NCBI RefSeq assembly: GCF_037975245.1 | Contig: NC_092572.1 | Coordinates: 1,215,501-1,279,500, forward strand | DNA: 64,000 bases | Source of the DNA: Apostichopus japonicus | Lineage: Eukaryota; Echinodermata; Holothuroidea; Aspidochirotida; Stichopodidae | Direction of reading: 5' to 3' | Part shown: piece after piece, positions 1,043 to 48,885 of the stretch | Position numbering within the stretch: position 1 is the first letter of the stretch | Layout: each line of letters opens with the position of its first letter | Program-made: the position numbers and the translations under genes | Notes under the pieces: generated by a model | The model's input: the letters and a program-made list of their open reading frames with translations, nothing else | The model's database searches: none | Told to the model about the DNA's origin: nothing

Positions 1043-3195
<2,153 letters not shown>

Positions 3196-4543: not shown

Positions 4544-7159
4544 GAAAGGAGACGTATCTTTAAAATGCGTACCGACTGACGCCCCAACTTGGGCTGTTAA
4601 TTAGGCTGAACAATAACAATGAAGGTATGACCCCCCTCCAAATGGTGAAAATGGTCATTGTTTGATGTGCCGGATTAAGCTTGTGGGAGGCCCGTGGCAA
4701 ACAGTTTATTGGAGCTTCCATAGAGATACATTGGTACCGGATAACGCCGGATGTATAGCTCACAAAAGACATCTATTTGACCACGGTGGTTATGATACGT
4801 ACATTAAAACATCACATAAAAACAGTCATTGATCAACAGCGTAAAGACTGCATATCGAAATCCATTTCGTTTGACTTCTTTGAACTTTTTGTACCATATA
4901 CAACGTAGAATAATGTAACGTTATAACAATATTTCTTTGAATTTTTTACCCAACGTTTAAACTCGTGCCCCAGTTGCACTTGGATAATCCTGTCCTGAGC
5001 ATTTGTTGATTAATGAGGCACCAGGACCACACAGCAAACGCCGTTGTTTCGGATACAAACAAGTTGCAGTTGACGATTTTGTATAATAAAGAAGAGTTTT
5101 CTCTAATTTAACATTTGGTGTAATTACATGGTACCTTTAAAAAGAAATCCTGCCTGAGATAAATGCAACAAGGAAGAAAGAATATGCCCATAATAATAGA
5201 TATCAGATTAATTATTATTTTCTTGTTAGTCTTTTGCTTTAATGGAAGCCTTTTTTTTTAAATTTCCCTTCACAGCTAATATATTCCATCAAGGGATTAA
5301 ATGTAAAGGATTAAGTTATCCTTAAAATATTTTCAGGAAACAAAAGCCAAGAAAAAAGCACGATTCTATTAATTGTTAATGAATCATTTAGTAAATCATA
5401 TTTTAAAATAAGACATAGCTATAGAGCATGGGCCTAATAATTTGTCGAAATGTTGTTGTACTTTTACGTTTGTCTTTTATTATTCATGCATGGCTAATTC
5501 CAGACTTTCAGGGTAAAAAAATTAGAGATCTTGTTTGGGCTATCATTGCATTGTATATCAAAATATATGTTAATAACAATAAAATGTAAAGCAGCAACAA
5601 AATATTAAGCGTGCTACGAAATGAGGCAGGAAGTGGTGTTCTGTATCAAGTTCGTTCCACATAAAAGAGGCTGATACCGTTTCCGGGCCTGGGTGGAGGG
5701 GGGGGGTCGAGGGGCCGATAACCATCATGGAAGAAGTGCCTAGGCGTTTATATCATCTGAGGATAAACACACCGAATTTTAAACATAAATTTGTTTGGTT
5801 TAATTTAACTGCTGATATGTTAAGTTACTTCAAGAGGGTAGCTGGTTTTCAGAGGTTTTGATTCAAAACTAGTAACTAAAAATAGAAACATTCCATATTT
5901 ACTTGTTTTTTTCCTTCTTTCACCTGGCATTAAAACCGTTGCATGTGTATATATATGCCACAATGTAAGTAGAGTAATATTTGGGCATCAAAAAACATTC
6001 TCCGGACAATAATGCATGTTTTGAAATTTGAAAAGGAAAATGGCTTCTCGAGGTTTCTCGAGGTTTGTATTCAAAAAGCTGAATATTCAACACTATGATG
6101 TAAAGCAATATTGAGTTGCATTTAGATGTATTTACACATTAGAAGTGGTATTTCGTTCATTTACATAATTTTTGTATAAGTGTAATAATAACAAATAAAC
6201 GTTTACGATGCGATATGAGGTGCATATAAATAAAAAAGTGGAAAATCAAACGAGTGTGATTTTATATTTATTATTTTTAATTTTCTTTAAATCAAATGTA
6301 ATATTTGATAGAGGTGGTCCGTGTATTTCTCAGCCTAATCAACCCGATTAAGACTCCCTAAACGTGGCGAATAAGCCCAGCCCCTGTATTGGTCGTAAGT
6401 AATGTGTTTACGATGACCACGTTTCTCCGTATATATTGGTGTAATCATGGCGTTTACGATGATCAATGCGAGAAGTTTACTGCTGGATTCAAACGTAAAC
6501 TCCAGATTAACGGTCATGTTTAAGGTAGCGAATCTGTTGTAATTGTGACCGGAAACGTAAAGATTACCCTTCCCTGAAACCGCACGATTAAGTGAGCTTC
6601 ACCGTATTTGGATGACACTTGGCGTTTACGGTCACCGCGTACTCGGTAAGTAAGTCATCGCGAAAGCGGAAAACTCACGCGTTTAAGTTGGGTCGTAAGC
6701 TTACCTTAATCACTAGTTTCAGGAGTGGAAACGTAACGGAAACAGGCTGGAACTCGGAATTTACGTCGCAATTACAGACCGAAAACGGCGATTTAAACGC
6801 GGGTTTTTTTCCCGTGTTGCCTGCAAATACAACAGACGGGTGAAATGACTTCCATAACAAAGTTTAGCGTTATCTTACCAGATGTACACTCCGTATGACT
6901 GTTATCGTGCAACGTGAACGAAAATACGTGACTACTTAAGGCTCATCACCAAGTGTTTCGTTCCGTAGTGTTTACTTCTTACGTGATTTAAATTGTCCGG
7001 GAAAACATCAGATATTTATACGATCTCTAACTGTCCTTTCCGTAAGATGTTGCCTTTAAGCACAATATTCATATCAAGCATAAACAATGACTTCAATGCT
7101 ATATTCAAACCTTCTATGAATGTAGGGTCACTGTATATATAAGATACACAATAACTTAC
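4544..7159. other. No gene supported; CpG-rich patch inside
   Basis: This is where the 3' end of the copy-1 Ig-NACHT gene should lie. Homology to copy 2 fades at about 7060, and I see no match to the copy-2 exon at 39025-39212. A CpG-rich patch at about 6180-6860 is described separately. The remainder is AT-rich with no convincing exon. Confidence 0.5.
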
Positions 7160-7326
7160 TGAATCGTTACGTTAATCTTTGTAGCGATGTACGTTGCGAT
7201 CTCAAGTATGTCGTTGTCTTCAAGTTTCTTCTTACTAATCACAACACGTTCAGCATTTGGTAATGGTACTTTCGTGAGAAACTGTACAGAGAAGTCCCCC
7301 TCAAAGACGAATGTCCCGTTAGGAAG
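7160..7326 (-). CDS. Exon after the NACHT exon, copy 1
   Basis: A 167-nt exon from CAATAG to CA|GTAAGT, reading LPNGTFVFEGDFSVQFLTKV and on to LEDNDILEIATYIATKINVT. It is open, in phase 0 with the NACHT exon, and conserved at 39664-39830. It looks like the start of a degenerate LRR-like region, but no LRR consensus is clear. It ends in phase 2, so the gene continues. Confidence 0.7.
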
Positions 7327-10300
7327 CTATTGAAACATTAAGAGGAAATAATATTTATTTTTTATCTCTTCATTAAGCATGAACACGAGGAGCAGAATCC
7401 CATGTCCACACACGGGCCTACACACAAACACAAGTACATACATTACTGCTTGATCCCACATCATAATGTGAAGTCGACTCCATATTATTGTGCAAACCTA
7501 TGATACCTCCGATTAAGTCAGACCAATCCACCTAGTTTTAGTTCAGTACCCCAAGGGTGTGAGGTGGGCAATAATTGTAGCACAACATTTAGTAAAAGTG
7601 TTCGATAGAGTACAGTATATAATTCCCAGTACGCTATGTTATGGATGAGATCATTATAACCGTATTTCCTACTACGTATTCAATGGAATAGAGACAACGT
7701 TCATCGGTACAGTTATATCTATGGATTATTTATGTGGAGTACTCATTTAACAAGTTGATGTTGTTAATTCCTTTAAGGGAAATACGTATTTTTAGTTGAT
7801 TTGGACAGTGGCTGAATTTGTTTCATTAATTTACCATATATGCAACTCGTAAAACACGTAAAACAAAACAATCTAAGACTTACATTTTCCTTTCTACAGA
7901 AAGTGAGAAAGTCTTCAATATTATGTTGATGATATGGGATCTCCGTCTTTGTAATGGTAATCTCTTCCTTCTTATTTATGGTATTAATTATTCGTTGTCT
8001 TACTGGAAGGTCAACTTCATGAAAGCAATCAATAAAGACATTCCACATTTCCTGTTTTTTAAGTGCATTAAGAATTTTTGTTTGCTGAGTTTCATCGTCG
8101 CTTAAACCAGAAGCGAACATTACGGCTGAATTGAAATCATCATTCATCGATTTAGTCTGGCAGGATAACATATTTCCTGGTAGCTCCGGCAGCAAATAAT
8201 GTCCCAAAAAGAATTTCTTAAAAAATGGGGACGCAGCATTGACACAATTGTCAGGAATCACTGTACTAAGATTCGCCTTTGAATGGTATGAGTCTACATT
8301 GTTTGAATCTACTTTAAGGAGTCCAATTGACAAAGCCTCTTGGAAAAAATAGCTCCGACTTTCTTCTTGCCAATACTCGATTGATCTCCTTCCTTTATAG
8401 AACGCTTCTCCAATGGTCTTTCGCAGGGCTAAAAATTCAGACTTGTCGCAATGTTTTTTGTTACCCTTTGTAACATAATGTCTTTCCATGCTATTGACGT
8501 GTGCTTCCAGGATCTTTGATAGACGACAATGATCGCCATGTTCATTGCCCTGTTTCGTTACTTCCATGGCGTTTAAATACAACCTTGTAGTAACGAATAA
8601 TGGAACCTTATACAACTCTTTCAAGAATTCTTTTGAATAACTGAGCGAATAAATCATTTTCTTTACGATGCTGTCGTCTGTCTTTCTATTGTGTTCGTTC
8701 TGACACGAGTATGACTGCATGCTCATGACTGTCTTGTCAAGTTCACCGGTACCACTTTCATCATCTATAGTGTTACTTTCGTTATTACAGTCCCCATGAT
8801 CAGTGCTTGGCTCTGGGCTATCCAAAAGAGAACTATTTTCCGTGATTGGTTGCTTATTTCTGTCCTTGTGATATACAGTTCTCGATCGATCATGGTATAA
8901 ATACATTTTCGCACATAAGTCCTTAACTTGGTTCTCGTTGAATCCTCTCAACTCAATCGTGAGGAATTCATCGGTATATGAGAAATTTAAGTTACGTGAT
9001 GCTACCCACATTCTCATTTTGTGATATTGCTGTACTGTTGTTGTTAATTGAGCGAGATGCTTATATTCATTTTCTTTAGTGTCCAATTGAGTCCCCGAAG
9101 TGCTTGCTTTAGTTAGGTGTTCTTCCTTCTGCATTTTGTTCCTTTGTTGAACATTTATTGCACTGCACAAGTCACTCAATCCGTCAATAAGAACAATTAC
9201 AGGTTGATCTGACAAGATTTTCTTCACGTCGATAGTTTCTATTCCTGAGTCATCGGGAATGTCAGTCATTATTATATCAACGAGACACATCTGATTATTA
9301 CTGTCAGTCAGATGTATGTAAATCAAAACGAAAGTTTTTTCGTCTTGTTGGATCCATTGGCTTAACATCTTCAGAATCAATGTTGTTTTCCCAAATCCTA
9401 GACCAGCCGTCAACGCCACCAATTTTTCTGTTGGTGGATTTTTATACAGCGTTTGTGTAGATACTTCGTATTGGCCTTTGTTTTTCGGTCTTTTAACTAT
9501 ACACTGGCTGTCCACGTAGATGGTATCAATATCAACGGGTACCGTTTCATGGTGAAAGATGTTGATATAAAGGTGTTTAGCATAACTATCACAAAGACAA
9601 GAAATGAACCTTGATAGATTCTTATCTTTTTCTGCAAAATAAAAAAGAAAACAAACTCGCTTTATAAAAAAGGCATAAGTCGATTCGTAATTTTACAGAG
9701 AAAACTTTCAAAATCTTCTATAATGTCTTTCCTTCCCTAAATATTAATTAGGTTTCCTTTCATATTACCTTTATTCCTAATTCGACAGTTGACTAACAAC
9801 CTTTTTCACATCCTGCACACCTCTGATCGTTTCAAAGGGCCATTCTTGACAAGCCAAGACCTACCTAGAGACACCAATATAACCTGCTGGATTTTTTTAG
9901 CTTATGGTACTGTATCAGGATTAACGTCAAACCCCACCTCTGTCCAGCATGGTACTATAAAATGTTTCCTTCCCTCCAGGTAGATTGTCTGCAAAGTTCA
10001 CCTCTCGGAATCAGATTCTTTCCCCAGTCACAGTATACACGCAAACAAAGTGTTACATCACTCGAACTATCTCAAGGTTTTCCTTCCTTATCCTCTTTTT
10101 TACCTCCATTACTAATTACTTCATTTTGCTACTTCCCTCAGATTTTATCTCCCCCTGAGTCCTCTCATTGCATATTCCTATCATATGACTTGATGTATTT
10201 ATTGTTGTCATAATCATTGCTCACTCCCCCAGTTTATTTACATGTCCATTTGTGTGTCTTTTTATGTTCTTAGTTTTTATTCGTTTAACTTAGCTCAGAA

Positions 10301-13300
10301 GATCCTGCTGGTATCGAAAGGTCAGACCCTCTAAATTGTACACATTTATATATATTTTCCGTTTTTTTTAGCAGTAGACAAGCAGTTTGCTACCATGATT
10401 GCCCTTTTAACAAATTTGATATCAACAATCAAACATCCAACTTACTATTAAGTGATCTCTGTTTCTGCGATTTGGTGTTGAAGTTTTCCATTTTTTCATG
10501 TGACCCTTCCTGAAAAAGTTAAGCATAGTAAATTATCACAATTATATTTTACGGAGTTGTGTAAGGCTACATTTTTATCTTTGAATATCCGAAAATTTGA
10601 AGAATATATTACATTTAAATACATTTACAGCTACCTCTCTAATATGCAAATGTCAAGTTTAAGAATTATAATGCAGACATCATAAAGACTTTATTAACAA
10701 TAGACCAACAAATATTACTATTAAAAATTAATTCGGACCTTACCTGTTCACTCATTGCAATGGTAACTCCATCGCTTTTTGCACGCTCACCTCCTAAAAA
10801 TAAAATAAAACTTTCTTGGTAATAACGTCAATTAAAGAGATTATGTATTAGTCGTTTTTGCAGCCTATGTTCTCAGTCGTTACGTCGCAGACTCGGTTGA
10901 TCATATACATTTATTTATGTTGAAGTGTATATTTTGATATAATATAAGTGTACATTATGATATAATAATATAATATACACTGAAGTGTATGTTGTGATAT
11001 TTACTATCAACCCTTAAAAGTATCTAACCAGACTTTTTTATAATTCTTTTTTATAATTTAATTTTAAAACTTTTTATTCGCACTTTATATGTGACTCTTA
11101 CTTGTGATTAAGTGTGAAGGATGTATTGTAAAGTATATATCATGATATAAATTAGCAAGCCCAAAAAAATATCTTACCGTACTTTTTCGTTTCTTGCCTT
11201 CCATTAGTCTTCTTTCGTACATAACAAGTCAGGAGAATTAGAGAAACTACAAAAATCACCCCGACGAGAGATATCACTACCCACAACAACCATGGTGGAT
11301 TATGCAATTGTGGAGATACTGTAGAAGTAATTTCAACAGCTGGCTCTCCTGTTAGACAGGGATCTAAATATATAAAATCAAACAGTTTAAAACTATACAT
11401 TTTACAACACAACAAGTGTACAATCTGACAATACTTGGATCATACTTGTTTACTTGAGTGAATGCCTACTGCTTATAATTTGCATATATTTCAAACCGTT
11501 GGTGTGACTTACGTGCACCACGTAGACTGTTGGACACCTAGTATTTCTATAATAATCCTAGACGTTATCGTTGTGAAACTGTTTCTTCTATGATTTTTAT
11601 TTGTTTTTGTTTTGTTTCTGGTTTCTTATTATCGCTTGTTTTGCATATTGCTATGTATACGCTACATGCTTTAAAAGAACATATCTTTTTTATATTACTT
11701 AACTGGAAGTAAACCACTATCATGTCGTTCTATTGAACATTCATTAATTTATGCTCTGGAAAAAATTTAAATGACTATAGTCGGTCAACATAAACATAGG
11801 CATGTATATTACATTACAGTCACAATTATAAAGAAAGATCTAACGAATAGACGTGTTTACTGACACTTAATTTGTACTAACCAGAGGTTACCCTGACGTA
11901 ACTGTCTTTACGGTGCAAAAGGTTGATGTCATCTTGTGCCAGACATCTTATATCAGCAAAGCCTCCGCATGCGTCGAACGAGTATTTGGCAGATGTAGAT
12001 GTGTCCCATGTGCCCAGCTTTTCATTTTTCTTTGAAATAGATTCGCCTGTAGTAAACTGGAGATGCTCGCTATGTTTAATCTCCAATCGAAGCGGTACTT
12101 TTGGTCGGGATGCAGTAACAGAACATTGTAACTGGCCCGTTCGGTTTATTTGTAGTGAACAACTCAAACATGACGAACACTTAGCAATCAGTGGACATCC
12201 CTGTCGTGGACTGACTGGAAAAAAATATATGCAATTTATATTGGCTGTTTTTTGCAGTAAACGAAAAGTTGCATTCCAAATTCTATGTTTTAATCAACTA
12301 TTGCTCTCTGGGCTGTTTGAACACGTTCTTCACCTAGGCGAACAATAGGTAGGTCGATACGACACGTGAAAATTATTTTCAAAGTAAAGAAAAAAATCTT
12401 TATTTTACAGGAAGATTTTTTAAGTAAACAATACTTTAAGTAATGAATGCAATGTATACTGCTTAATTACTTACAGAATAATTAGATAAGGAGACATACT
12501 GAAAACGATTTCAGACTTTGAACTAAGACATACACTAATACGAAAATATAAAATCACCATCCATCAAAAAATGTCATCAAAGGCTTCATATTTAAGTACT
12601 TTGCAAGGTTCTGTATAGAGTTGTGGTTGTATCTACAAATAATTACTATAAAAATGACAAGATACCTTTTATGCTGACAGTAATGCTTTCTGTTTCGTAA
12701 TTTCCTGTTGCAAAGAATGCTACCACGGTATATACAGCCTCATCTTCAAGTTGGGCGTTCGAAATGATTACATCGCCGTTTGATGTGATGTCAAATCTAC
12801 TGCTGTCATAAAGAGTTCCTGATTTGATGTTGTTCTCCAAAGCAAGGATAGGACTTGTACTAGATGTCGATCCAATGTACCATAGCACCTCTGTTGGAGG
12901 TTCAGATGTATTACATCCGATCGTTGCATTGTGTCCCTTCTCGATTATAATATTTGACGGACAGTTGAGCTGCACACCTATGAAGAATTAAAGATGATTA
13001 ATAATTTGCTATTAATTTACATGCATCTTTTTACTTGTATTTTGTTCATAATAGTACAGTCCATACTGCGTAGTTATTTTACCTTGCTAGATTTCATTTA
13101 AGTAGTTCAGTGGCTGTCAAAAAACAAACGAAACTATAATTATCTAATTTCCCATTTTATGGATAAACTGCTAACATAAGTAACAAATATTTCTGATGAT
13201 GAAGAACGTTATCCATGGGTGGATCTAGGTTTACCAACATTTGTTTGAACGTTCAGAGCAACGATGATCAACGATGAAATAGGTAAACATAAGAAAGCTG

Positions 13301-14112
13301 TACCAGACAAAGTGTGGAAGCGACAGCATATCTTACTCTTGGGAAGATTCGCCATTTGAAGATTTTTAAGTTTGATGATACAGTTGTGTGGGTGTTTACA
13401 TTATGTTATTATGTGTTAATAAGACGTTTTCTAATTTCATATCTTGAATCGAAATCAATAGGCCGGGTACCAATAGACTGCAAATTGTAGTTATTTCGGT
13501 TTAGTTGTCGGCTGCTGTGGCTGACTGAAAATTTGAAATATAGTAACTAACTACCTCGTGTTGTGTTAGTTTAATATCTGCATCAATTAATTTTCGGACG
13601 AAAGCAGTATCTACTATGTATGTTATTTTGCACCTGATTTATGCATTAATTTGTATCTTTGGTAAAACAAGCAGGCGGCATTTCTCCTCTTATCTTATAA
13701 TCCTCTCCTCCTTTCGTGCCCTCCCATCATTAGTTGGAATTCGATAAGCAAATCTATTTAAACAATTACCCAATATCTTGTCATATCATGCTCCCACCAT
13801 CCCCCACCCCCCCCCCCACATCTCTTCTTTGTGATTAAGAGAGAAGCAGTCAGTCAGTAAGTTTCCGCAGTGATGGTGGTTTATTTTCTATATCTGTGTG
13901 TGTAAATCGTACTACCGGTAAGCAAAAGTGTAAAATTTTGTGGATTATATTAATTACGCTACTGCTTAACCAGTCAAACAGACAACGTGCAAACCCTGGC
14001 CTATTTGTATTATTATGTTACAGAGTTACGTGTAACAATCATACTTACCTGTGAAAGCACTAGATGCAAAAACGAGGACAAGCCAAGCCGAGGTTATGAC
14101 AGGCACCACCAT
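7160..14112 (-). CDS. Ig-Ig-TM-NACHT receptor gene, copy 1 (8 exons seen, 3' end not found)
   Basis: Eight exons join in phase on the minus strand: 14112-14049, 12977-12666, 12214-11882, 11363-11178, 10793-10744, 10509-10446, 9631-7884 and 7326-7160. They give about 975 residues without a stop: signal peptide (1-22), Ig-like domain (22-126), second Ig-like domain (126-237), membrane helix (about 259-282), two short cytosolic segments (to 337), NACHT region (337-919) and a further piece (920-975). The NACHT family is known as the STAND ATPase of NLR immune receptors; here it would hang from a plasma-membrane Ig receptor. The last exon ends on a GT donor in phase 2, so at least one more exon should exist, but I do not find it between 1 and 7160. 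The start is uncertain because in-frame ATGs lie upstream; the one at 14112 gives the cleanest signal peptide. Architecture is well supported; ligand and signalling are unknown. Confidence 0.82.
7884..9631 (-). CDS. NACHT ATPase exon, copy 1
   Basis: A single 1748-nt exon (582 codons) entirely open. A Walker A loop (TAGLGFGKTTLILKML, Lys near residue 419 of the model) is followed by Walker B (PVIVLIDGLSDL), a sensor-1-like segment (MRMWVASRNLN) and the LRGFNENQVKDLC segment typical of NACHT domains. A helical part with FFLGHYLLPELPG and MWNVFIDCFHEVD follows, like the NLR winged-helix/HD region. Against the family consensus, the first Walker A Gly is Ala and the acidic pair of DGxDE reads SD. 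A long acidic insert rich in Ser/Asn/Asp lies between sensor 1 and the helical part. Acceptor TTTTGCAG; donor AAAAT|GTAAG at phase 0. NACHT call strong. Confidence 0.9.
10015..10367. mobile_element. Insertion specific to unit 1
   Basis: The sequence between CGGAATCA(G/A) and GCAG(T/A)...CAGTTTGCTA is about 350 bp longer here than at 42546-42560 in unit 2. It ends with AGAAGATCCTGCTGGTATCG and a T-rich run, reminiscent of a retroelement 3' end. It lies in the intron before the NACHT exon. Family unknown. Confidence 0.45.
10446..10509 (-). CDS. Short juxtamembrane exon B, copy 1
   Basis: A 64-nt exon between TTTTTCAG and GTAAGT, reading EGSHEKMENFNTKSQKQRSL then N. It is conserved at 42635-42698 and leaves phase 1, which fits the start of the NACHT exon. 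Charged and polar; function unknown. Confidence 0.73.
10744..10793 (-). CDS. Short juxtamembrane exon A, copy 1
   Basis: A 50-nt exon between TAG and GTAAGG. Joined to the TM exon it reads GGERAKSDGVTIAMSEQ. It is too short for an ORF scan but is conserved at 42966-43015 (GERAKNDEVTIGMSVQ), and the phases match on both sides. No known motif. Confidence 0.75.
11178..11363 (-). CDS. Stalk and transmembrane exon, copy 1
   Basis: A 62-codon exon, phase 1-1. A Ser/Thr-rich stalk (VEITSTVSPQ) is followed by the hydrophobic helix WLLWVVISLVGVIFVVSLIL and a stop-transfer segment YVRKKTNGRQETKK. This places the Ig domains outside and the NACHT exon inside the cell. Copy 2 (43229-43414) keeps the same layout. 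Confidence 0.85.
11882..12214 (-). CDS. Second Ig-like exon, copy 1
   Basis: A 111-codon exon, phase 1-1, with an AG acceptor (TTCCAG) and a GTTAGT donor. It is cysteine-rich at the start (CPLIAKCSSCLSC) and carries LQCSVTASRP as a strand-B type Cys and ADIRCLAQDD as a strand-F type Cys, consistent with a C2-like Ig fold with extra disulfides. No equivalent exon lies in copy 2, where the interval is about 640 bp shorter. Ig assignment is by pattern only. Confidence 0.68.
12666..12977 (-). CDS. First (V-like) Ig exon, copy 1
   Basis: A 104-codon exon flanked by AG and GT, phase 1 on both sides. It shows strand-B Cys (ATIGCNTS), strand-C Trp (EVLWYIGS), and the strand-F region DEAVYTVV. The usual DxAxYxC cysteine is Val, so the canonical intradomain disulfide cannot form. 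Copy 2 has the same substitution, so it is not a recent error. Several N-x-S/T sites are present. Confidence 0.8.
14049..14112 (-). CDS. Signal-peptide exon of the Ig-NACHT gene, copy 1
   Basis: Reads MVVPVITSAWLVLVFASSAF then TG, a short hydrophobic leader ending with small residues suited to signal peptidase. The donor CACAG|GTAAG leaves phase 1, which matches the Ig exon that follows. The same exon in copy 2 is split by a LINE. Further ATGs lie in frame upstream (up to 14208), so the true start could be longer; the leader is hydrophobic only from 14112. Confidence 0.75.
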
Positions 14113-14795
14113 GATGCAATGTGCGCTATTGAAAACAAAAACAGTCTGAAAACATGCATGGCTTCCTGAAGTCGTCTGATGCACTTTGAACATGAGCATC
14201 TCATACACATGATAAAATATAGTTTTCTCTTTCGATGCCAGTAGTGCACTTACTACTAGACAAATAGAAGATAGTAAGTATTGAGAAAGGCGTGGATTAA
14301 ACAGAAAGTATATATTATGTCTTAGAATAGTAATGACACGTTAGAATACAACTATGTCAACCAATTTATTTGCTTAAAGTAGGAACAATGAACATCTTGG
14401 AGCAATCATATTTAGTGACACGTTTAGCTATCAGTTTCATTACCAACATGAAGCGTTGGACAGAAAAAAATATGATGGTTAAATTGAGTGAGCCTTATGA
14501 AAAATGCTGTGATATATCACAACTCATTCAAAACGTCTCAGTTCTGATCGTCTGTCAAGTAGTCAAAATTACAGTCCAAATGTTTGTATTACAGTTGGTG
14601 AACATTGACGCCTTTGTATTTGCAGTAATGAACGACACACATTTCCGAGCGTTCCTTCTAGGTAGCCGTAGATGAATGATACTTTCTTTTACCTCGACCC
14701 ACAACATAGTATATCCGATCAACCTTCCTGTCCAACTTTCATTTATATATGTGTATTTCTTTTTCTCAGTCGGAGTTAAATAGTAATCGAGTGAT
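14113..14795. promoter_or_regulatory. Shared divergent promoter region
   Basis: The 683 bp between the two opposed start codons must hold both promoters unless non-coding first exons exist. On the plus strand TTATATAT at 14743 lies about 25 bp before TCAGTC (A at 14768), a TATA-plus-initiator spacing, with the ATG at 14796. On the minus strand a TATATA run at about 14318-14325 is a weaker candidate. Copy 2 has lost the plus-strand half of this region. This is inference from motifs alone. Confidence 0.4.
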
Positions 14796-14847
14796 ATGAT
14801 TCTGTGGTGTCAGATCGCATTGCTCTCTTTGTTCACAATTGCTAAAG
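14796..14847 (+). CDS. Signal-peptide exon of the ITIM-like receptor, copy 1
   Basis: Reads [17 protein letters not shown] with donor AAAG|GTAAAT, phase 1. The hydrophobic leader is directly followed by the Ig 1 exon in phase. Copy 2 has no equivalent. Confidence 0.75.
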
Positions 14848-17788
14848 GTAAATATTTGCTATTAATTTACAGATCAACCATAGTATGTTGTGTACTAATA
14901 TTAATGGGGATATCTAATTCCTTTTCATCTTTCAGGAGAGCGGCGATTTGACCGTGAGTGTAACTATGGGAATACTTCGACCAGTTCTCAGCATGTGAAC
15001 TGCATATGCTCGCGAAATTCGTCGATCTGTTTAATTTGCAATGTATCGAAAAGTAGCCACAATCTTACTTGGTACAACGACATCACCAACCTTATCTTAG
15101 CCAGACAATCATTCAAGAAAACAAATACTGAAAGCTTCGAAGTAGATCGATGCAATTCTTCAAATTATTCCATTCTGCTCCTTACGCCTTGCAGTAAAGT
15201 AAATCAAGCGAACTACTCATGTCTTCAAGGAGAGACTAAGCTAATGACATTCATCTTGACATTGCAAGGTAAATTTCTCAAATATTACAACAAGATATTA
15301 CTACCATATGAACATATTTTAATTATGATACATGTGACATGTAGACAAGTTTGTAATTATATATCAAATTACTTGGAGTTATACGTTATATTTTAACTTT
15401 ATTTGTTAATCATTTAATTTCTTTAATAACTACATAAGTATTAATAAATCATAAATAGGAAGTATTGTGTAAACGTTTGCTATTTGAAGAGTTGTTAATT
15501 ATTACTCAATTTAGTTTTCCTTGGTTCACTTTATTTTAAAGCATTAGTAATTATCAACTTTTTCTCTCATATATCAGTGACGCCAATTGTTATTATAAAT
15601 GGAACCAACTTTATCAGAGGTAATTCATTGTCTGTGAAGTCAGATAAGATTATAACATTTGAATGTATTGTGATGGAAGCAATTTTACCAATTACAACTA
15701 CATGGTACACAACAAATGGAATGGAAACGAACAATGTCACAGAAGTTTTCAACAACGCAACAGTCGCAATTTCGTACTATACTGTGCGTGTCACCTCAAA
15801 TTTTAAGTTGTATTGTTCTGCGGAAGGTCCTTATATAGCGAAGCGAACGACGTCCTTGTCAGTAACTGTTGAACAGACTGATGGTAAGTGGGTCACTTAT
15901 ACTTCAATTAAGGCTGCTTTTTGAATTGACCTTGCTAAGACACTGCTAAATGAAAGGTAGAGTTCTTCAAAACAAAATCAGGCAAATTGTCCATTACCTT
16001 TAATTCGGTATACAATATTTCTGTATTGTAAAATAGGTTTTTCAAAGCAGATATCGGCACATTATTAGGACACGTTTTAAATAATGTTGTTACGTTAATT
16101 AACGAACAGAAAAGTATGTACTAAGATTTATGTTGAAGCACACAGTGGTAAAGCTTACAAGCGGTTAGATCCATTCACAGTGCAGTAAAGTTTTCTTAAA
16201 TGGAAGATGAAATAAGTTTTCGGGACGATTGTAGGAATTTTCCCCTTTACAAAAAAAAATGAACAAACTGATGGTAAGTTGGTCACTTGTACTTCAATTA
16301 AAGCTGCTTTTTGAATTAAACTTGTTAACACACTGCTTAATTAAAAGCTAGAGTTCTTCAAAGCAAAATCAGGCAAATTGTCCATTACCTTAAATTCGGT
16401 ATAAAACATTTCTGTATTGTAAAATAGGTTTTTTTTCAAAGCAGATATCAGCACATTATTCGGACAAGTTTTAATTAATGTTGTCACGTTAATTAATGAA
16501 CAACAAAAGTATGTACTAAGATTTATGTTGAAAGCACACAGTGGAAAAGCTTACAAGCAATTGGATCCATTCACAGTGCAGTGAACTTCTCATATGGAAG
16601 ATGAAATATTTTTCGGGACGATTGTGGAAATTTTCCTCTTTACAATTTACCACCACATTGTCCAAAAGATGAAAGGGTTTTAAGAGTACCATAAGTATGG
16701 AGAGCGGTTGATACTTAAATAAATCAATACTGAGAGTTCTCTGTAGGGTTCACACACTTTTTTCATTAGTTGTTTTGATATTCTCAATGCTTTTCATTCC
16801 TTAAGTTAACTGCAATTATATTTACGCCTGGAAATATACTTAAAGTTCAGAGTTTAGTAAACTGTCATTTTAAAGGGTTGGTGTTGTGGAGAAATTATAT
16901 TCTCGCATATGAATACCAAAAGAAACGATAAGTATTTCTTAAAGATGAATATAAATATGGAAGGTAACTCGCAAAGTAGCAGCAAACATGTATCGGGTCT
17001 GGATATGCTCCTACAGTTTTTGTTTATGTCTACTAATTATTCACATTTTAAAATGAGTGATAAGTATAATGTTTAAGTTTTCATGTGGATATGTTTTCAC
17101 TTGTAATTCTACCATTTCTTATATATTAATGTATACCATTCTAAGTTTTACCACTGCAAATATTTATAGTTCAAATTGTAATGAGAATTAACAGATACAG
17201 ATGTTCATTTGCAGAAAATAACTCGGTGTTCAGGAACGAGATATCGATTGCTTTAGCTTTTATATCAACTCTCCTTGGCATATTAGTGATATTGTTTCTT
17301 CTCCACAACATGAAGATAATACGTGAGTATCAGCAGTAGAGCGGTTGTAAAATGTGGTATGTATATGAACTTCAACTGGTATATCCCAATATCATTAGAA
17401 TACTCGCAAATCTTAATACTTTGAAGCCAAAAAGCGGATCGATCGGGTGCAGAACATTAATACAATTCTACAATAGTCTTGCTTTGTACACTTTATACAT
17501 ATCTTATAAATTTACAAATTACAAATTTACACTATTTGAAAACGGCATAAAACTATTTTGGTTTCTTTCAGCATTACTACAGCAACGGTGTGCACGAAGG
17601 TAAGATCCCAGTAACAGTATGTAAATTGTTTATTTCCACAGTGTAACCGAAAAAACAAACAAATATATATATATATATATTAAATATATATATATTAAAT
17701 ATATATATATATATGTATGTATATATATATATACATAAATATATATATATATATATATAAATAAATATATGTATGTATATTTATATAT

Positions 17789-17857
<69 letters not shown>

Positions 17858-18191: not shown

Positions 18192-18359
18192 CTTGACGAA
18201 AACTACGAAATCAAAGTAACACCAACTTGATTGCTGTCTTTATAGTTACTTGTTTGGAGTATACGTATTCACTTTGGTTATAAAATCGTTATAAAATATC
18301 ATCCAGATGTCGCAATATTGAACTTAGTTTATGATTTAACTATCTATATTTAGATTATG

Positions 18360-18365
18360 AATAAA
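18360..18365 (+). terminator. Polyadenylation signal AATAAA
   Basis: AATAAA lies 169 bp after the stop of the ITIM-like receptor on the same strand. It is the first such hexamer after the stop. The matching site in copy 2 is mutated. Confidence 0.5.
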
Positions 18366-38578: not shown

Positions 38579-38752
38579 TTAAACGTAATCTGAAGTGTTT
38601 GCCAAAAGGAACATAACCTCCAGCAATTTGGGTAAAGCTTGAAACTCTGGAAAACCATTATTGGTATTCTTTCCTTTCATCCCGAGTTCCATGTTCAAAG
38701 TTACAGATCGTCCGGGTGTCAATATTCTTCCAAGATTCGCCTGTTGAGTATA
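38579..38752 (-). pseudogene. Possible terminal exon of copy 2
   Basis: A stretch open on the minus strand after a TCAACAG acceptor-like site. The frame that matches the upstream phase reads SESWKNIDTRTICNFEHGTR and stops soon after. Another frame stays open longer (FPEFQALPKLLEVMFLLA). I cannot choose between them. Confidence 0.25.
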
Positions 38753-39024
38753 CAACTGCAAAATATAAGAAATACCAACCACTATTTAGCTATCACATTC
38801 TTCGACTAACATTTCGACGGACAGAGTTGTTACTGAACGACGACAGCAAACAATATGATATTATATTTCAGCTCATGCAGGAACAAATTCAGCTTTACGA
38901 AGCTGAGTGGGTTGACAGCTATCGGATTGATAAAGAATATCATATTACTGCAAGTTAATATTCTTCGGTTTTAAAAACAAGTAACCTTTTAATTTGAAAA
39001 TAAACGTGTTTTTTTGTTACTTAC

Positions 39025-39212
39025 TTGTAAATTGTTTCTGCCTCTTTACAATGTTACCAAGCTTAGTAATAGTTTCTTGAGAAAATGTATCCATAGCGCA
39101 ATTGTGAAACCTAAGAAAAGGTATGAAAATACATTTATTTATTTGGCACATAAACTGTCTAATATATGCGTGATCGCCATCTGAAAGACTTTCATGTTTT
39201 AAAACTTCATAT
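39025..39212 (-). pseudogene. LRR-like exon of copy 2
   Basis: 188 nt from TTTTCAG to ACAA|GTAAGT, continuing the previous exon in phase: YEVLKHESLSDGDHAYIRQF and on to FLRFHNCAMDTFSQETITKL. FLRFHNCAM has the LxxLxxCxL look of an LRR unit. A second AG (CTTTTCTTAG) inside could be an alternative acceptor. No copy-1 match was seen. Confidence 0.5.
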
Positions 39213-39663
39213 CTGAAAATGAGGAAACAGTTACGTTATAGTTAACCAGCTTACACATGAATTAATGAATAATGTGTTAGTCGTTCAAAAAGGTAACTCG
39301 AACATCAATGATAGTGTAGACCAATTGGATTTCCCAACGTGCAATGTACAATCTGTTTCAAGAAAACATTCCATTTTGCCTGTTTGTTTAACACGAATAA
39401 AAACTCAAGTTTATTAACAGTCATTTTGTCGGAACACTGTCCCCTTGCAAATAATGGAAGCTTGTGAGTATAACTTCCATGTCACTCCTGAGAAACACAT
39501 TTAAAGACGTATGATTGGTTAAACTTTGATCTGAAATGACCTTGAATTTATTAACTTGATAAACACCATTCATAACAAGCACGGACAATGACTGCAAATA
39601 CTATTTTCAAACCTTCTACAAATGTATAAGGTCACTGTAAAAGATAGATACAAAATAACTTAC

Positions 39664-39830
39664 TGAAGCTCTACTTCAATCTTTTTAGCGATGTACAATG
39701 CTATATTAAGTATGTCTTTGTCTTCGAGTTTATTCTTACTTATCACAAATCGTTCAGCATTTGGTAATGATAAGTTCGTGAGAAACTGTACAGAGAAGTC
39801 CCCATCAAAAACGAATGTCCCACGAGGATA
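39664..39830 (-). pseudogene. Exon after NACHT, copy 2
   Basis: 167 nt, intact splice sites, reading YPRGTFVFDGDFSVQFLTNL and on to LEDKDILNIALYIAKKIEVE. It is the match of 7160-7326. Open, phase 0 to phase 2. Confidence 0.68.
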
Positions 39831-40123
39831 CTATTGAAATATTAAGAGAAAACAATACTTAATTAATGTTCTCCATTAAGCATGAACACGAGGAGCAAAA
39901 TCCCATGTCCACACAAGGGCACACACACACACTTACACACATATCCACTTCAAAAAAGTTAAGTCGACTCCATGTTATTATGCCAACCTATGTTACCTAC
40001 GATTATGTCAGAACAATCCACCCATTTTCAGTTCACTACCTCATGGGTGTGAGATGGGCAGCAATTGTAGCGCAAATTTAGTACCAAATTACGAGGTGCC
40101 ATGATAATAGTTCATCGGTGCAG

Positions 40124-40230
<107 letters not shown>

Positions 40231-40418
40231 ATGTTTAGCACTCACTTAACAAGTTGATGTTGTTCATGTCTCAAAGATAATGACGCATTTTACTAGTAGT
40301 CGATTTGAACAGCGGATGAATTTGTTCCATAATTTTAATGTATCTGTAAGTCTTAACTATGGCTAAATTCGTTATAAAATTTATATGTATACCATCATGT
40401 AATGCGAAGAAAACTTAC

Positions 40419-42165
40419 ATGTTCACTGCTACAAAAAGTGAGAAAGTCTTCAACATTATGTTGCTGATACGGGATTTCCGTCTTTTTAATAGTAATCTCT
40501 GCCTTAATATTCATACGACGAATCATTCGTTTTCTTACTAGAAGGTCAACTTCATGAAAGCAATCGATATAGACATTCCACATTCCTTGTTTTTGAAGTG
40601 AATCAAGAATTTGTGTTTGCTGAGTGTCATCGTCGCTTAAACCTGAAACGAACATTAAGGCTAAACTGAAATCATCATTTGTCAATTTACTTTGACAGGA
40701 TAAAATATTTCCTGTTAGGTCCGGCAGCAAATAATGTCCCAAAAAAATTCCTTAAAAGATGGATACGCTGCAACGACACAATTGTCAGGACTCACTGTAC
40801 TAAGAGTCGCATTTGAATGGTATGAATCTACATTGTTTGAATCTACTTTAAGGAGTCCAATTGACAAAGCCGCTTGAAAAGATACAATCCGACTTTCTTC
40901 TTGCCAATACTCGATTGATCTCCTTCCTTTATAGAACGCTTCTCCAATGGTCTTTCGCAGGGCTAAAAACTCAGACTTTTCGCAATGTTTGTTGTTACCC
41001 TTTGTGACATAATGTCTTTCCATGCTATTGATGTGTGCTTCCATGATCTTTGGCATACGACAATGATCGCCATGTTCATTGCCCTGTTTCGTTTCTTCCA
41101 CGGCGTTTAAATACAACCTTGTTGTAACGAATAATGGAACCTTATACAACTCTTTCAAGAATTCTTTTGAATAACTGAGGGAATAAATCATTTTCTTTAC
41201 GATGTTTTTATGTACCATTCTATCGTGTTCCTTCTGACACGAGTATGACTGCATTCTCAAGACTATCTTATCAAGTTCACCGGTACCACTTTCATCATTT
41301 ATATGTTTACTGTTGATAATATAGTCCCCAGGACCAGTGCTTCGCTCTGATCTAGCCAAAACAGAACTATTTTCCGTTATTGGTTGCTTATTTTCTTCCT
41401 CGTGATCTACATTTCTTGATCGATCATGGTATAAATACATTTTTTCACATAAGTCCTTCATTTGGTTCTCATTGAATCCCCTCAACTCAATCGTGAGGAA
41501 TTCATCGGGATATGACAAATTTAGGTTACGCGATGCTACCCACATTCTCATTTTGTGATTTTGCTGTACTGTTCTTGTTAATTGAGCAAGTAGCTTATAT
41601 TCATTTTCTTTAATGTCCAATTGTGCACCCGAAGCGCTTGCTTTAGTTAGGTGTTCTTCCTTTTGCATTTTGTTACATTCGTGGAAATTTATTGTACTGT
41701 ACAAGTCACTCAATCCGTCAATAAGAACAATTACAGGTTGATCTAACAAGATTTTCTTCACGTCGTTAGTTCCTATTCCTGAGTCATCGGGCATGTCAGT
41801 CATTATTAAATCAACGAGACTCATATGATAATTACTGTCAGTCAAATGTATGTAAATCAAAACGTAAGTTTTTACGTCTTGTTGGATCCATTGGCTTAAC
41901 ATCTTCAGAATCAATGTAGTTTTCCCAAATCCTAGACCAGCCGTCAAAGACACCCATTTTTCTGTTGGTGGGTTTGAATACAGTGTTTCTGTAGATACTT
42001 CGTGATGTCTCTTGTCTTTCGGTCTTTTAACTATACACTGGCTGTCCACGTAGATGGTATCAATATCAACAGATACCGTTTCATGGTGAAAGAGGTTGAT
42101 ATAAAGGTGTTTAGCATAACAATCACAAAGAAAATAAATGAACCTTGATAGATTCTTCTCTTTTT
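40419..42165 (-). pseudogene. NACHT exon of copy 2, frameshifted
   Basis: It is open from 42165 to about 40740 with the same motifs as copy 1 (LTAGLGFGKTT, PVIVLIDGLSDL, MRMWVASRNLNLSY). It then shifts frame after FKEFFW and continues in another frame as GHYLLPDLTGN, with homology to the end of the exon. Donor ACAT|GTAAG is intact. Confidence 0.85.
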
Positions 42166-42634
42166 CTGCAAAATAAAAAGAAAACAAACTCGCTTTATAA
42201 AAAAGGCATAAGTTGATTCGTAATATTACAGAGAATAAGCTCTTGTCGAAATCTTCTATAATGTCTCTCCTTCCCTAAATATCAATGAGGTTTCATTTCT
42301 TAATACCTTTATTCCTAACTCGTCAAATGACTAAAAACCATTTTCACATCCTGGACATCTCTGATCGTTTCAAAGGTCCATTCTTGACAAGCCAAGACCT
42401 ACCTAGAGACACCAACATAACCTGCTGGAATTGTTAGTTCTTGCAACTGTACCAGGATTAACGTCCAACTCCACCCCTTTCCAGCATGGTACTTTCAAAT
42501 GTTCCCTTCTCTCAAGGTAAATTGTCTGCAAGGTCTACCTCTCGGAATCAAGTTTTGTAGCAGTGGTCAGGCAGTTTGCTAACATTTTTGCCGTTTGTTT
42601 TACAAACTTGATATCAATGAATCAGACAACTTAC

Positions 42635-43228: not shown

Positions 43229-43414
43229 CATACTTTTTCGTTTCTTGCCTTCCATTAGTCTTCTTTCGTATATAATAAATCAGGAGAATTAGAGAAACTA
43301 CTAAGATCACCCCGACGAGAGATATAACCACCCACAACAACCATGATGGATTATGCAATTGTGGAGATATTGTAGAAGTAATTTCAACATATGGCTCTCC
43401 TCCTGGACAGGGAT
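43229..43414 (-). pseudogene. Stalk and TM exon of copy 2
   Basis: 186 nt, intact sites. Helix WLLWVVISLVGVILVVSLIL, then YYIRKKTNGRQETKK. Matches copy 1 11178-11363. Confidence 0.8.
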
Positions 43415-44077
43415 CTGCACAGATGAAATAAAACAGTTTACAAGAAAAACGTTATGTAATCAACTAAACATTTAATAACAAAACAAGTGTACAATTTGGA
43501 CAATACTTGCACCACGTGTACTTGAGTAAATGCCTACTGCTAATCACTTGAGTGCATTTCAAACCGTTGTTTGACTTACAGACACCACGTAGACTGCTAG
43601 ACACCTAGTAGTTCTCTAAAAATCCTAAACGAACGTTAACGGTCTCAAACTGTTACTCTTTGTTTGTGTTTGGTTTATTATGATTATCGCTTGTTTTGCG
43701 AATTTCTATGTATGCGTTAAAGCTTTAAAAGAACATTTCCTGGAAGAAATGTAATTGACTATAGACGCTCAACATAAACATATACATGTATGTTACAAAC
43801 ACGGTCACATATATATAATAAAGAAACATCAATTATATATACACGCTAAAAAACCTATTCATCATTTGTTGGCTTGACTAATTACAAAATAATCAGATAA
43901 AGTGACATATTGAAAAACTATTTCACATACGGACATACAATAATAACAAAAGTAAGTTATCATTTTTTCTTTTATCAAATGCTTTATATTTAAGTATTTG
44001 GCAAGATTTCGTATAGATGTGTCGTTGTATCTACAAGTGATAACTGTAAAAGTGACAAGTAAATGAATATGAGGTAC

Positions 44078-44389
44078 CTTTAAAGCTAACGGTAATATTT
44101 TCTACTTCGAAATTTCCGGTTGCAAAGAATGCTACCACGGTATATACATCCTCATCCTCAAGTTGAGCGTTCAAAATTATCACATCGCCGTTTGAATTGA
44201 TGTCAAATCTACTGCTGCCATACAGAGTTCCTGATTTGAGGTTGTTCTCCAAAGAAAGGATAGGACTTGTCCTGGATGGCGATCCAACGTACCAAAACAC
44301 ATCTGTTGGAGGTCCAGATGTATTGCATCCGATCGTTGCATTGTGTCCCTTCTCGATAACAATATTTGACGGACAGCTAAGCTGCACAC
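44078..44389 (-). pseudogene. Ig 1 exon of copy 2
   Basis: 312 nt, phase 1-1, intact sites and open. It shows ATIGCNTSGP, VFWYVGS and DEDVYTVVAFF; as in copy 1 the second Ig Cys is Val. The differences from copy 1 cluster in the middle of the domain (GSTSSTS against GSPSRTS), a region that would face ligand. Confidence 0.78.
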
Positions 44390-45267
44390 CTATGTTCATT
44401 TAAAGATCATTAATGTTGTGGAACCTGTTGGCAGGCAACCATTTATTGGTATATAATTGGTAAATAATATGATTGTTAATATTGCGCAGTTATTATACAT
44501 TACTAGATTTCATTTCAATATTTCAGTGGTTGTCAAAAACGAAAACAAAATTGACATCATCTAGATTCCTTTTTTTTTTTTTGTAAACTGCTAACATAAG
44601 TAGGAACTGTTTCTTATGGTGGAGATCGTGATCCATTAGTGGATCTGTTTCACATGTTTTGAACGTTTAATGCAGCGTTGATCAACGGAAATCCCACAAA
44701 CAAAAAATAGTATGGCATACTATGTCATTTGACGACTCGTTTGCTAATACAGTTGCGTGGGAGTTTACATTTTGTTGTAATGTGTTAAAATGTAGTTTTT
44801 TTATTATTAACCTTTTCCCTTTCATCCACTTTTCCTTACCTCCCCTTCCCCTCTTGAGTTAGAATTCGATATGCAAATATATTTCAACAATTACCCAATA
44901 TGCTTCCACATCATATCTATCCCAATATGTTTTTACATCATACTCTGCCCTCCCCCCCCCCCCACCCACCTCCTCCTTCTTTGTGATTAAGAAAAAAACA
45001 GTTAGGCGCATTCATATTCTGTCAGTAAATTTCCTCAGTGATGACGTGGTTTTATTTTCTATATTTGTGGATGAAACGCCTTACCCCAGAACCATTAGTG
45101 TTTAAATTGTGTGCATCATATTGATTACGCTACTCATTAAAACTGAATAAGTCAACGTGTAGAAGCCCTGGCCCATGCTTATTACAATGTTACGGAGTAA
45201 ATTTTAACAATCATACTTACCTGTGAAAGCACTAGGTGCAAAAACGAGGACAAGCCAAGCCGAGGTT

Positions 45268-48129
45268 GATTTGATTTGATTTGATTTTATTCTGCAAGAT
45301 ATCATTCTTCATCTACATACAAACAAAAATTGCACATAAAGATAAACATTTAAAATACAAGATGGGAATATACTTAAATGCATCAAAAAAAAAGAGAGAA
45401 AATAACATGCCAAGGATAGCCCTTTAAGGTAAAAGCTTATTTCCAAAGGGGTCCTTATAACCATAAAAATACAAAAGATAAGAAATCAACTACTAAAACA
45501 TCTAAAACATGCATACAAACACTGTAAAAAAGAAAGATATTTACAAGCTAGACATTCATATGATTTAAAGGTAGGCTTTGGCATCTTTTTAAAAATTGTA
45601 TTTCAGCAGGATGGATTTTATGTTTTCAGGTAGCCTGTTCCAGTTTTTAATTGCATTGTAATAAAAAGACTGCACTGTGCGTTTTAATTTTGGGAAGTTG
45701 AACATTAAAAATACTACCTCTTGTGTTATGGCTATGAACAATATTTACTCTAATAAAACTCTCCCTCATATAAACTGGACAGGTACCATGGAAAACATTA
45801 AACACATGATTAAGACGAAGCTGTTCAGCCCTGGTGTTGATGTTCAAAATACCAAGAGTTTTAAAGTCAGCATGGTTAATGTGATAATAAAAATCTTTAC
45901 CCAGAATGAATCTGATAACTTTGTTCTGGGCACATTGTAATCTACGAGCGCGGTACTTAGATATACCTCCATACCAAGATGAGATGGAATAATCGAACAG
46001 ACAAAGAACAAGGGCTGTACAGATGGTCTTTTTCACATTTTGATTAAAATAATTAGCTTGCCTGTAGAGGAATTTGAGTCGAGAATTTGTTTTACTAATA
46101 ATGCCAAGGACAAGTTGTTCGCCATCAAGGTATTGGTTTAACTCCAGACCGAGGTAAACAACAGAATGTTTGGCCTTAATCAGTTGACCATCACAAACAA
46201 TTGAGAAGTCAGTATACTGACCAAGTTTACGTTTCGTCCCAAGCAAAATCAACTCGGTCTTACCCATGTGTAACGACAATTTGTTTTCAATGAGCCATTT
46301 ATTGCCACTCTCCAGGTTAGATGAAAGATTTTTGCCAATATTGTTAGGATCTTTGTCAGAGTAAATTAAAGCACTGTCATCGGGATATTGTAAAAGCAAG
46401 CAATTGATGGAGTTTGGCATATCATTTACATAGCAAAGAAATAAAATGGGGCCCAATATACTGCCTTGAGGCACCCCGCAAGTGATGGTCAGAGGATCAG
46501 ATTCAACTCTATTTATGCTAACAACTTGCCGTCTACCAGAAAGATAAGATTGGAACCAGTCAGTTGATGTACTGTGGACACCCAATGCGGACAGCTTATT
46601 ACACAAAATGTGATGGTCTACACTGTCGAACGCCTTCTGGATATCCAATAAGATCATGCCGGTATAATTACCAGCGGCAGTTTGTTTCCTGATATGATCT
46701 TGCAGATGAATAAGGCAAGTGTCGGTTGAATATGATCCTCTAAAACCAGATTGGAATTGGTAAATGAGATTATTGTTAACCAGATAATCGTTCAGTTGAT
46801 GGAAAACAGCTTTCTCTAAGAATTTTGACACAACAGAGAAGATGCTCACTGGTCTATAGTTTCCAGCTTCAAGCTTACTCTTCTTTTTATGAAGAGGAAT
46901 GACTTTTGCGATTTTCATGTCATTAAGAACAACACCACATCTTAAAGAATCATTAATAATATGTGTGATGGGGCCTGTAATAACCTCAGCAGCATCTTTA
47001 ATAAAACGCCCTGGGATACCATCGAGACCAGTACTTTTACTTATGTCAAGACTATGGACCTCATTCAGGACAAATTCCTCATTAATTTCTTGAAGCTGGA
47101 AAGAATCTGGAACAGCACTCTTATACTGATTTTTAAAAACAGGTGAGTCCACATCGTACAAGTTAAACTCTTGCTTTGGAAGTTGATTCACAAGATCTGA
47201 TGCAACATGAGTAAAAAAATGATTGAAATGATCAGCAACATCCTTTTATCATGGCATTTTTCGCCATTCACATCTAAAACAGTATTTGATGATGCATTAG
47301 ACTTTGATTGGTAGCCAAGAGTCTTGAGATGTTTCCATAACTCTTTAGGCTTGTCTTTGTATTCGTCTATTTTTTCAATCATGTAATGACGTTTGGCGTT
47401 TCTTATGTCATTATGAACTTTGTTGTGCATCTTACGGTACATTTGGTAATTTTCAGATGAGTGGGTATCCCCCCGGGACTTACGTAACCAACTGTACCGT
47501 TCACGAATACTCTCGAGAATCTCAGCTGAAATCCAGGGATCAGACTGATTTTTGATCCTAACTTCCTTAACTGGATCCACAGAATCAAGAACAGTGGTAA
47601 ACACACCCCGGAAACATACCCACGATTCGTCAACATTATCAGACATATAAACAGAAGACCAGTCAACATTTTTCAGCTCATCAACAAAATATTCCTTATT
47701 GTACTTTTTTGGGGACCTAATCTGAATCCCTTTATGGGAATCAAACTTGGTTTTGATGTTACCCCTTGTACAATAAACAATGTAATGGTCGCTTATACCA
47801 TATGGAATGACCCCATATTGCTGGATTTTTTTCATATTGTTACATATAACATGATCAATGGCTGAGGATGATGTGTCAGTGACTCTTGTAGGAGTATATA
47901 TCAACTGCTTGAAACCAGACATATTCAAAATATTTTGGTAGTTCTTATACTTATCATCTGCCTTGATACTACACATGTTGATATCACCGAGATAACATCA
48001 AATTCATTAGGAAGTTTAGTCAGAACATGCTCCAACTTATTGGTGAAATCAGATTCTAGATGGGTTTGAGACCGATAACATATACCAATAATAATGGGTT
48101 TTGACATTGGTAGAAGAATCTCTACCCAA
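45268..48129 (-). mobile_element. CR1/Jockey-superfamily LINE, 5'-truncated, in the copy-2 leader exon
   Basis: The minus strand encodes the end of an AP-like endonuclease (47976 back to about 47600, SDHYIVYC) and reverse transcriptase (47191-45647). RT motifs are YRPVSIFSVVSKFLEK, FDSVDHHILCNKL and CGVPQGSILGPILFL, with an active site of QYPDDSAL, where Pro replaces the usual Ala of YADD. Frames change at about 47960-48000 and at about 47235, and the 5' end is cut. The 3' tail is a short (AAATC)n array at 45268-45290. AGGTT flanks both ends (45263-45267 and 48130-48134) and is probably the target-site duplication. The element is dead. Confidence 0.9.
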
Positions 48130-48727
48130 AGGTTATGACAGGCACCACCATTATGCATGTGTGCTTTACAAAAAAAAAAACAGTATGAGATAACATGCTT
48201 GGTTTGCTGGTTGTCTGATGCAAATATTTGTTCGGACCATTGTATAAATTTGTCAATTTTGGAGTTCACCACAGCATTGTACAAAGATGATTTTAGTGTA
48301 TCATAATTATGGAAAGCGGTTAAAATTTACAATGTCAAAGTAACAAGAGCTCTTTAGAGAGTTGGCACCCTTTTTAACTAGTTGTGGTGATAATCTGTAT
48401 GCTTTTAAAATCTTTAAATGTATAGCTGGTGGTTTTTCGACATCCTTTAAAACCGTTCGGATGTATGTTAAGTTGAATATTCACACTTTCCATTGACGTG
48501 TGACTCATTGTATGGTTTTCCTATGGAACTCGGTAAAACTTGATCAAACCTAGCACGTTTGGACAAAGAAAGTCCTCTTTTTGAAACAGATTCTAAGCTC
48601 GCACGTTACAACAGATCACCCCGTGACGTAATGTGCGGAGTCGCTTGAGGAAAACATTCTATCAAGCTATTCATTTCAGCACTAACACTTGGCCAATACG
48701 ACATTCTGTCATATTGTTAATATCAAA

Positions 48728-48870: not shown

Positions 48871-48885
48871 CGCAAATGTTGGTAT

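Follow-up and report, generated by a model that had tools for sequence, protein, structure and literature searches.

An immunoglobulin-NACHT gene and its decayed copy

Here we describe a gene in a 64,000-nucleotide stretch of the genome of the sea cucumber Apostichopus japonicus (contig NC_092572.1, positions 1,215,501 to 1,279,500 of the forward strand; hereafter the window, in whose own numbering coordinates are given). The sequence evidence supports well the prediction that the minus-strand locus at 14112..7160 is one A. japonicus gene for a membrane receptor, in which two immunoglobulin (Ig) domains and a transmembrane (TM) helix precede a NACHT domain. An earlier analysis of the same DNA (the sequence-only reading) had claimed such a gene, with eight exons in phase. 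This was borne out by the GT..AG borders of all seven introns, by a frame that stays open across the joined exons and by their 974 complete codons, identical to residues 1-974 of a 1035-amino-acid 'uncharacterized protein' annotated by NCBI for this species (P0001); the splice borders that had been proposed for testing (12666/12214, 11178/10793 and 10446/9631) agree with the exon borders found. Near-full-length paralogues and a second NACHT branch of like layout, both described below, further support a single membrane-anchored Ig-Ig-TM-NACHT gene. Chance adjacency of the exons was rejected on the strength of the open splice model together with the P0001 identity and the paralogue matches.

The predicted protein runs from a signal peptide through a V-type Ig domain, a second Ig domain, one membrane helix and a NACHT core to a possible tail resembling leucine-rich repeats (LRR). 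Exon 1 (14049..14112), the same as in P0001, carries the start codon and the signal peptide (hydrophobic residues 2-20) and ends at a gtaagt donor. It is followed by exon 2 (12666..12977), coding for the V-set Ig1 (Pfam 35.2 bits, cut-off 26), and exon 3 (11882..12214), coding for the C-type Ig-like Ig2 with its cysteine motif CPx4CxxCxxC. The stalk, the membrane helix and a basic stop-transfer segment lie in exon 4 (11178..11363), where the hydropathy profile has its single strong peak after the Ig part (residues 262-280, mean 3.03). Exons 2, 3 and 4 are all of phase 1-1 and thus symmetric. Two short juxtamembrane exons, placed by their splice borders (exon 5, 10744..10793; exon 6, 10446..10509), lead into exon 7 (7884..9631), which encodes the NACHT NTPase and a helical C-terminal part and was identified by its motifs (AGLGFGKT, IVLIDGLSD), by Pfam and by fold matches to NLRC4, NAIP5, NOD2 and NLRP3. 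Exon 8 (7160..7326) holds a portion of the possible LRR-like tail.

The sequence-only reading had taken 7160 as the end of the gene, which did not hold: exon 8 ends there at a GTAAGT donor, and the stop codon at 7157 used in that reading sits behind this donor and would be reached only by read-through. P0001 extends 61 residues beyond this point, beginning with one whose codon is divided by the intron, and no credible match to these residues was found in window positions 1-7160 (the best was 28% over 50 residues, with stops, on the opposite strand). In a second copy of the locus, exons 9 (39109-39026) and 10 (ending at 38661), spanning 38661..39109 on the minus strand, are the counterparts of the annotated tail and lie within about 1 kb of that copy's exon 8; no counterparts of them were found beside copy 1, and DNA similarity between the copies stops at about 7067. 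Copy 1 thus has neither of these exons close by, and the annotated tail either is located over 7 kb from it or is part of a neighbour.

Comparison of the window with itself matched 7067-21329 to 39568-55162 in fragments that, leaving simple repeats aside, are 65-87% identical; most rows of this comparison came from simple-sequence tracts at 1163-1288, 17650-17860 and 40126-40225. The second copy, likewise on the minus strand, retains an Ig1 exon (44079..44390), a TM exon (43239..43421), a NACHT exon (40416..42166) and exon 8 (39663..39827). Its exon 1 (45221..48151) breaks off after 22 bases (48151-48130) and resumes at 45267-45221; a reverse-transcriptase open reading frame (ORF; Pfam RVT_1, E 1e-34) lies in between, and the junction carries a five-base repeat. 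Copy 2 is dead, because exon 1 is split, the Ig2 exon is missing (none was found between 44079 and 43424) and the NACHT exon is frameshifted near 40745. The claim of a duplicated copy with the same exon order is therefore true of the surviving exons only. As proof of the layout copy 2 was rejected, being dead, and it was retained as a sign of the exon order before the duplication. Ratios of nonsynonymous to synonymous substitution between the copies (Ig1 0.35; TM 1.28, with only 3 synonymous changes; NACHT 0.74 before and 0.77 after the frameshift; exon 8 0.88) are uninformative because one copy is dead.

The element that interrupts exon 1 of copy 2 extends over 45650-48326 (-), with RVT_1 in 45650-47245 and AAATC repeats at its end. 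Another reverse-transcriptase element occupies 28771-31305 (-) and shows RVT_1 (E 8e-36) and an endonuclease ORF (Exo_endo_phos_2, E 4e-10). Each receptor copy is faced head-to-head by two plus-strand ORFs of Ig-like appearance (14905-15921, repeated at 48875-49819), a pair which starts about 0.7-0.8 kb from the receptor start codon and was duplicated along with the receptor gene; the second ORF of the pair matched Ig_3 below the cut-off (E 0.009), the first had no Pfam match, and a possible membrane segment was noted by eye nearby, at 17145-17336.

The receptor family in A. japonicus

Three protein searches, one of which contributed nothing beyond the other two, returned 22 distinct relatives, all of them annotated in A. 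japonicus, with none from elsewhere among the best 7997-8000 candidates by shared words that were scored. The lack of relatives elsewhere means little, because scoring was limited in this way and because NACHT proteins of the NOD-like receptor (NLR) type with V-set domains have been reported in another holothuroid, Chiridota heheva, where 6 NLRs carry other domains, including Ig V-set (PMC8913654). Compared by description, these are, like the window protein, holothuroid NACHT proteins, and the available text of that paper does not mention a membrane helix for them.

Two relatives on other scaffolds, P0002 and P0003, aligned over the whole query (100%) with identities of 85% and 82%, and P0009 matched 99% of it at 35%. 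An ectodomain of more than 180 residues and a cytosolic part of more than 300 are combined in 15 of the 22 proteins, all 15 of which have a hydropathy peak of at least 1.6 between the two. Ten of these are listed on a 34,621,101-base contig, the other five belonging to a second set of contigs, and a shared contig was taken from matching base totals only (34,621,101 and 969,843 bases); the 15 may thus count some genes twice, once per assembly. P0004 and P0005 are truncated C-terminally. The remaining seven proteins are five NACHT-only models (P0006, P0007, P0008, P0011 and P0021), P0022, and P0020, a TM-NACHT protein without Ig domains. P0022 is an Ig-Ig-NACHT model with no membrane peak between Ig and NACHT, its TM exon having been skipped or being missing; P0011, annotated as 'isoform X2', starts in the juxtamembrane part, has neither Ig domain nor membrane segment and is possibly a cytosolic form.

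Trees of the ectodomain (16 rows; most inner forks unresolved) and of the cytosolic part (21 rows; with a long-branch warning) each separated two branches at 100/100 support. The window gene belongs to branch A, in which the first glycine of Walker A is replaced by alanine; branch B mostly shows GEPGIGKS and DGISN or DGVSN, P0020 differing. P0001 shares with branch B, P0010 apart, 41-44% identity in Ig1, 25-29% in Ig2 and 19-22% in NACHT. A comparison of branch profiles, from which P0010, P0013 and P0020-P0022 were left out, linked the ectodomains at E 5e-31 and the NACHT parts at E 9e-15. By these sequence comparisons the family appears as two NACHT branches, about 20% identical, with one ectodomain type.

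P0010 stands across both branches. Its Ig1 and Ig2 are 83% and 80% identical to those of P0001, its TM part and NACHT only 20% and 19%; the last two are instead 87% and 79% identical to their counterparts in P0012, with the switch point near the Ig2/TM exon border. On sequence P0010 looks like a mosaic of an A-type ectodomain and a B-type TM-NACHT part; a chained gene model would look alike.

Domains, fold and topology

The ectodomain of P0001 reaches to about residue 261 and its NACHT domain spans residues 414-578. In all 13 family rows listed, Ig1 has YT[VFY] where the usual Ig pattern is YxC, plus a cysteine near its start, and Ig2 starts with the CPx4CxxCxxC motif. Pfam did not recognise Ig2 of P0001; that of the paralogue P0018 matched C1-set at 21.3 bits (cut-off 21). 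The NACHT match is marginal in P0001 (26.6 bits) and in the spliced model (26.7), the cut-off being 26.7, and reaches 30.0 bits in P0002 and 36.8-44.4 in six B-type rows. Judged against the usual Walker A and B motifs, P0001 lacks the first glycine of Walker A, as does the rest of its branch, and the later acidic residues of Walker B are changed; all rows that cover the motifs nevertheless retain GK[ST] in Walker A and the leading aspartate in Walker B. No death-fold family, whether CARD, death or TIR, was found by Pfam in 10 family proteins (E up to 0.01), and no LRR family in three C-terminal pieces (E up to 10), where DUF6258 alone matched, below its cut-off. NCBIfam gave weak matches only, far below the cut-offs, on 5 proteins.

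Of two structure models (mean predicted local distance difference test scores 39.3 and 48.5), the first, built from 7 sequences, was too poor except at the C-terminus; its top Foldseek match was NLRC4 (E 4.6e-4), the sole match under 0.001. A weak fold match suggests that proteins described as LRR-less may keep an LRR remnant at the C-terminus. For the second model, the 50 listed PDB fold rows comprised 15 NLR entries (13 named as NLR and 2, from oocyte complexes, that we interpret as NLRP chains), 17 Ig receptors and 18 other AAA+ proteins. Vertebrate NLRs are cytosolic proteins with CARD or PYD and a long LRR region, and are not known to have Ig domains or a signal peptide. What the window protein appears to have in common with NLRC4, NOD2 and NLRP3, as modelled, is the NACHT core and possibly an LRR-like end.

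Two kinds of sign bear on orientation in the membrane, both counted over the 15 proteins of full layout, which are paralogues and not independent. N-glycosylation sequons number 75 in the ectodomains, with 38 expected (20-51 in 200 shuffles), and 61 in the cytosolic parts, with 67 expected (48-90). Net charge is +2 to +6 after the helix and -3 to +1 before it (+5 and -2 in P0001). Because of the sequon excess in the Ig part and the basic residues after the helix, the sequences point, if indirectly, one way, to a predicted topology with Ig outside and NACHT inside, as is published for AjNLRC4.

Known membrane receptors and the proposed mode of action

The Ig-TM-NACHT architecture has been published for A. 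japonicus since 2021 (PMC8699970, PMC11932488, PMC13133943). In the accessible portions of these papers, AjNLRC4 (MN607598) is described as an Ig-like domain, an Ig domain, a membrane helix and NACHT, without CARD, located at the membrane of coelomocytes, Ig facing outward; its Ig part binds microbes, the receptor dimerises and is internalised, and its intracellular part binds actin, leading to Arp2/3-dependent phagocytosis (PMC8699970). Once the receptor is internalised, its Ig part also binds caspase-1, ahead of MLKL-mediated death (PMC11932488). The window gene shares with AjNLRC4 the species, the domain order and the lack of CARD, and the nectin structures 3alp and 4fom, on which the AjNLRC4 Ig part was threaded (PMC11932488), also match the window ectodomain by fold. 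The two differ in the length of the ectodomain (to residue 482 in AjNLRC4, with TM at 483-503), in the position of NACHT (600-757 in AjNLRC4) and in a second helix reported for AjNLRC4 at 776-795; in our 22 proteins, of which some are truncated, no hydropathy peak of at least 1.6 follows NACHT. The AjNLRC4 sequence was not identified among the matches of the three protein searches, and the window gene is judged a paralogue of AjNLRC4 by layout. Other receptors compare by description. AjNLR-new (PIK48001.1), screened from several A. japonicus genes of that design, also consists of Ig, TM and NACHT, but at 1197 amino acids is longer and is described with the inverted topology, NACHT outside and Ig inside (PMC13133943). 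Sponge NLRs with predicted membrane helices, termed 'putative membrane-bound NLRs', share NACHT and membrane helices with the window protein, and an Ig ectodomain is unmentioned for them in the text available (PMC12909245).

We read the locus, with a probability of roughly 0.7, as coding for a type I membrane receptor, AjNLRC4-like and of Ig-TM-NACHT design, that works by ligand clustering and NACHT self-association. The V-C ectodomain would bind either another Ig molecule or a ligand on the microbial surface; clustering from outside would crowd the cytosolic NACHT domains, and these would bind nucleotide and self-associate. Because no CARD, death or TIR domain was found, NACHT and the tail might themselves serve as a docking platform that recruits partners directly. 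An outcome of the AjNLRC4 type (phagocytosis, caspase-1/MLKL death) would for the window gene be an extrapolation by analogy. The coupling of extracellular recognition to an ATPase of the STAND class (signal transduction ATPases with numerous domains), anticipated by the sequence-only reading, agrees with the accessible AjNLRC4 work (PMC8699970).

Several observations weigh against this interpretation. The NACHT match of P0001 only just reaches the level of the Pfam cut-off, and for P0009 none is listed at E up to 0.01. When PDB sequences were searched with a profile, the 33 hits (E up to 0.1) were without exception Ig-type chains, with no NLR among them, so that the placement of NACHT depends on Pfam, motifs and fold; both structure models are of low confidence, and those NLR fold rows that span several domains have root-mean-square deviations of about 19-27. 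Judging from sequence, the departures in Walker A and B may make hydrolysis weak. The NACHT-only models P0006, P0007, P0008, P0011 and P0021 are present in the family, and truncated genes or cytosolic isoforms may exist. The gene model is drawn from genomic sequence and annotation only, annotated models within tandem arrays may be run together or truncated, and the 3' end of P0001 falls outside the window. Finally, kinship to AjNLRC4 is by layout only, and the 2026 AjNLR-new paper gives, in its available text, the opposite topology for another family member.

That opposite topology is very unlikely to apply here. It has in its favour that surface binding is reported for the recombinant NACHT part of the related protein and that a TM-NACHT piece was seen at the membrane in 293T cells, as far as the accessible text of PMC13133943 goes, but the sequon excess confined to the Ig part, the basic residues directly after the helix and, in P0001, an N-terminus that is hydrophobic in the manner of a signal peptide oppose it. 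The same text counts a membrane segment before the Ig domains, which is the position of the signal peptide here; a signal peptide counted as a membrane segment may have caused the published call. Least probable of all is that gene prediction and the sequence-only reading both chained two neighbouring genes, one Ig-TM and one NACHT. Chaining could produce a protein such as P0010, and would fit the NACHT-only models and the last residues of P0001, which are not encoded beside exon 8; against it, 15 proteins of like layout fall into two branches with NACHT parts about 20% identical, two scaffold sets are annotated in agreement, and the reading frame passes unbroken from the TM exon to NACHT by way of the juxtamembrane exons.

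Somewhat less improbable, though still unlikely, is a real gene for an inhibitory or decoy receptor that clusters without signalling, its NACHT switch catalytically impaired. AGLGFGKT and DGLSD in branch A, and DGISN/DGVSN in most of B, do depart from the usual motifs, and the lack of a death-fold domain in the 10 proteins would suit such a role. The retained GK[ST] and first Walker B aspartate argue otherwise, as does AjNLRC4, which likewise has no CARD and promotes phagocytosis (PMC8699970, accessible text). A signalling Ig-TM-NACHT receptor remains our preferred reading.

To the published architecture the present analysis adds the conservation of layout in 15 proteins, two NACHT branches, a putative mosaic, signs of topology and a possible LRR remnant; the branches, the mosaic and the LRR-like tail found no mention in the open-access literature as far as its text was available, subscription journals being mostly not covered. 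More tentatively, and in our view doubtful, the family might form a clustered membrane-NLR repertoire, in which one kind of V-C ectodomain would be shared out among different NACHT tails by means of symmetric phase-1 exons, whether by germline exon exchange or by splicing between tandem neighbours, giving diversified surface receptors with a STAND ATPase and residual LRR as the signalling end. The topology prediction conflicts with one published model, that of AjNLR-new. Two characterised sea cucumber membrane NLRs are now tied to genomic anatomy and to a possible exon-exchange point, which makes testable how a signal from outside could drive the STAND switch; if exons are indeed shared out in this way, A. 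japonicus would possess a diversified surface receptor system that signals through a STAND ATPase.

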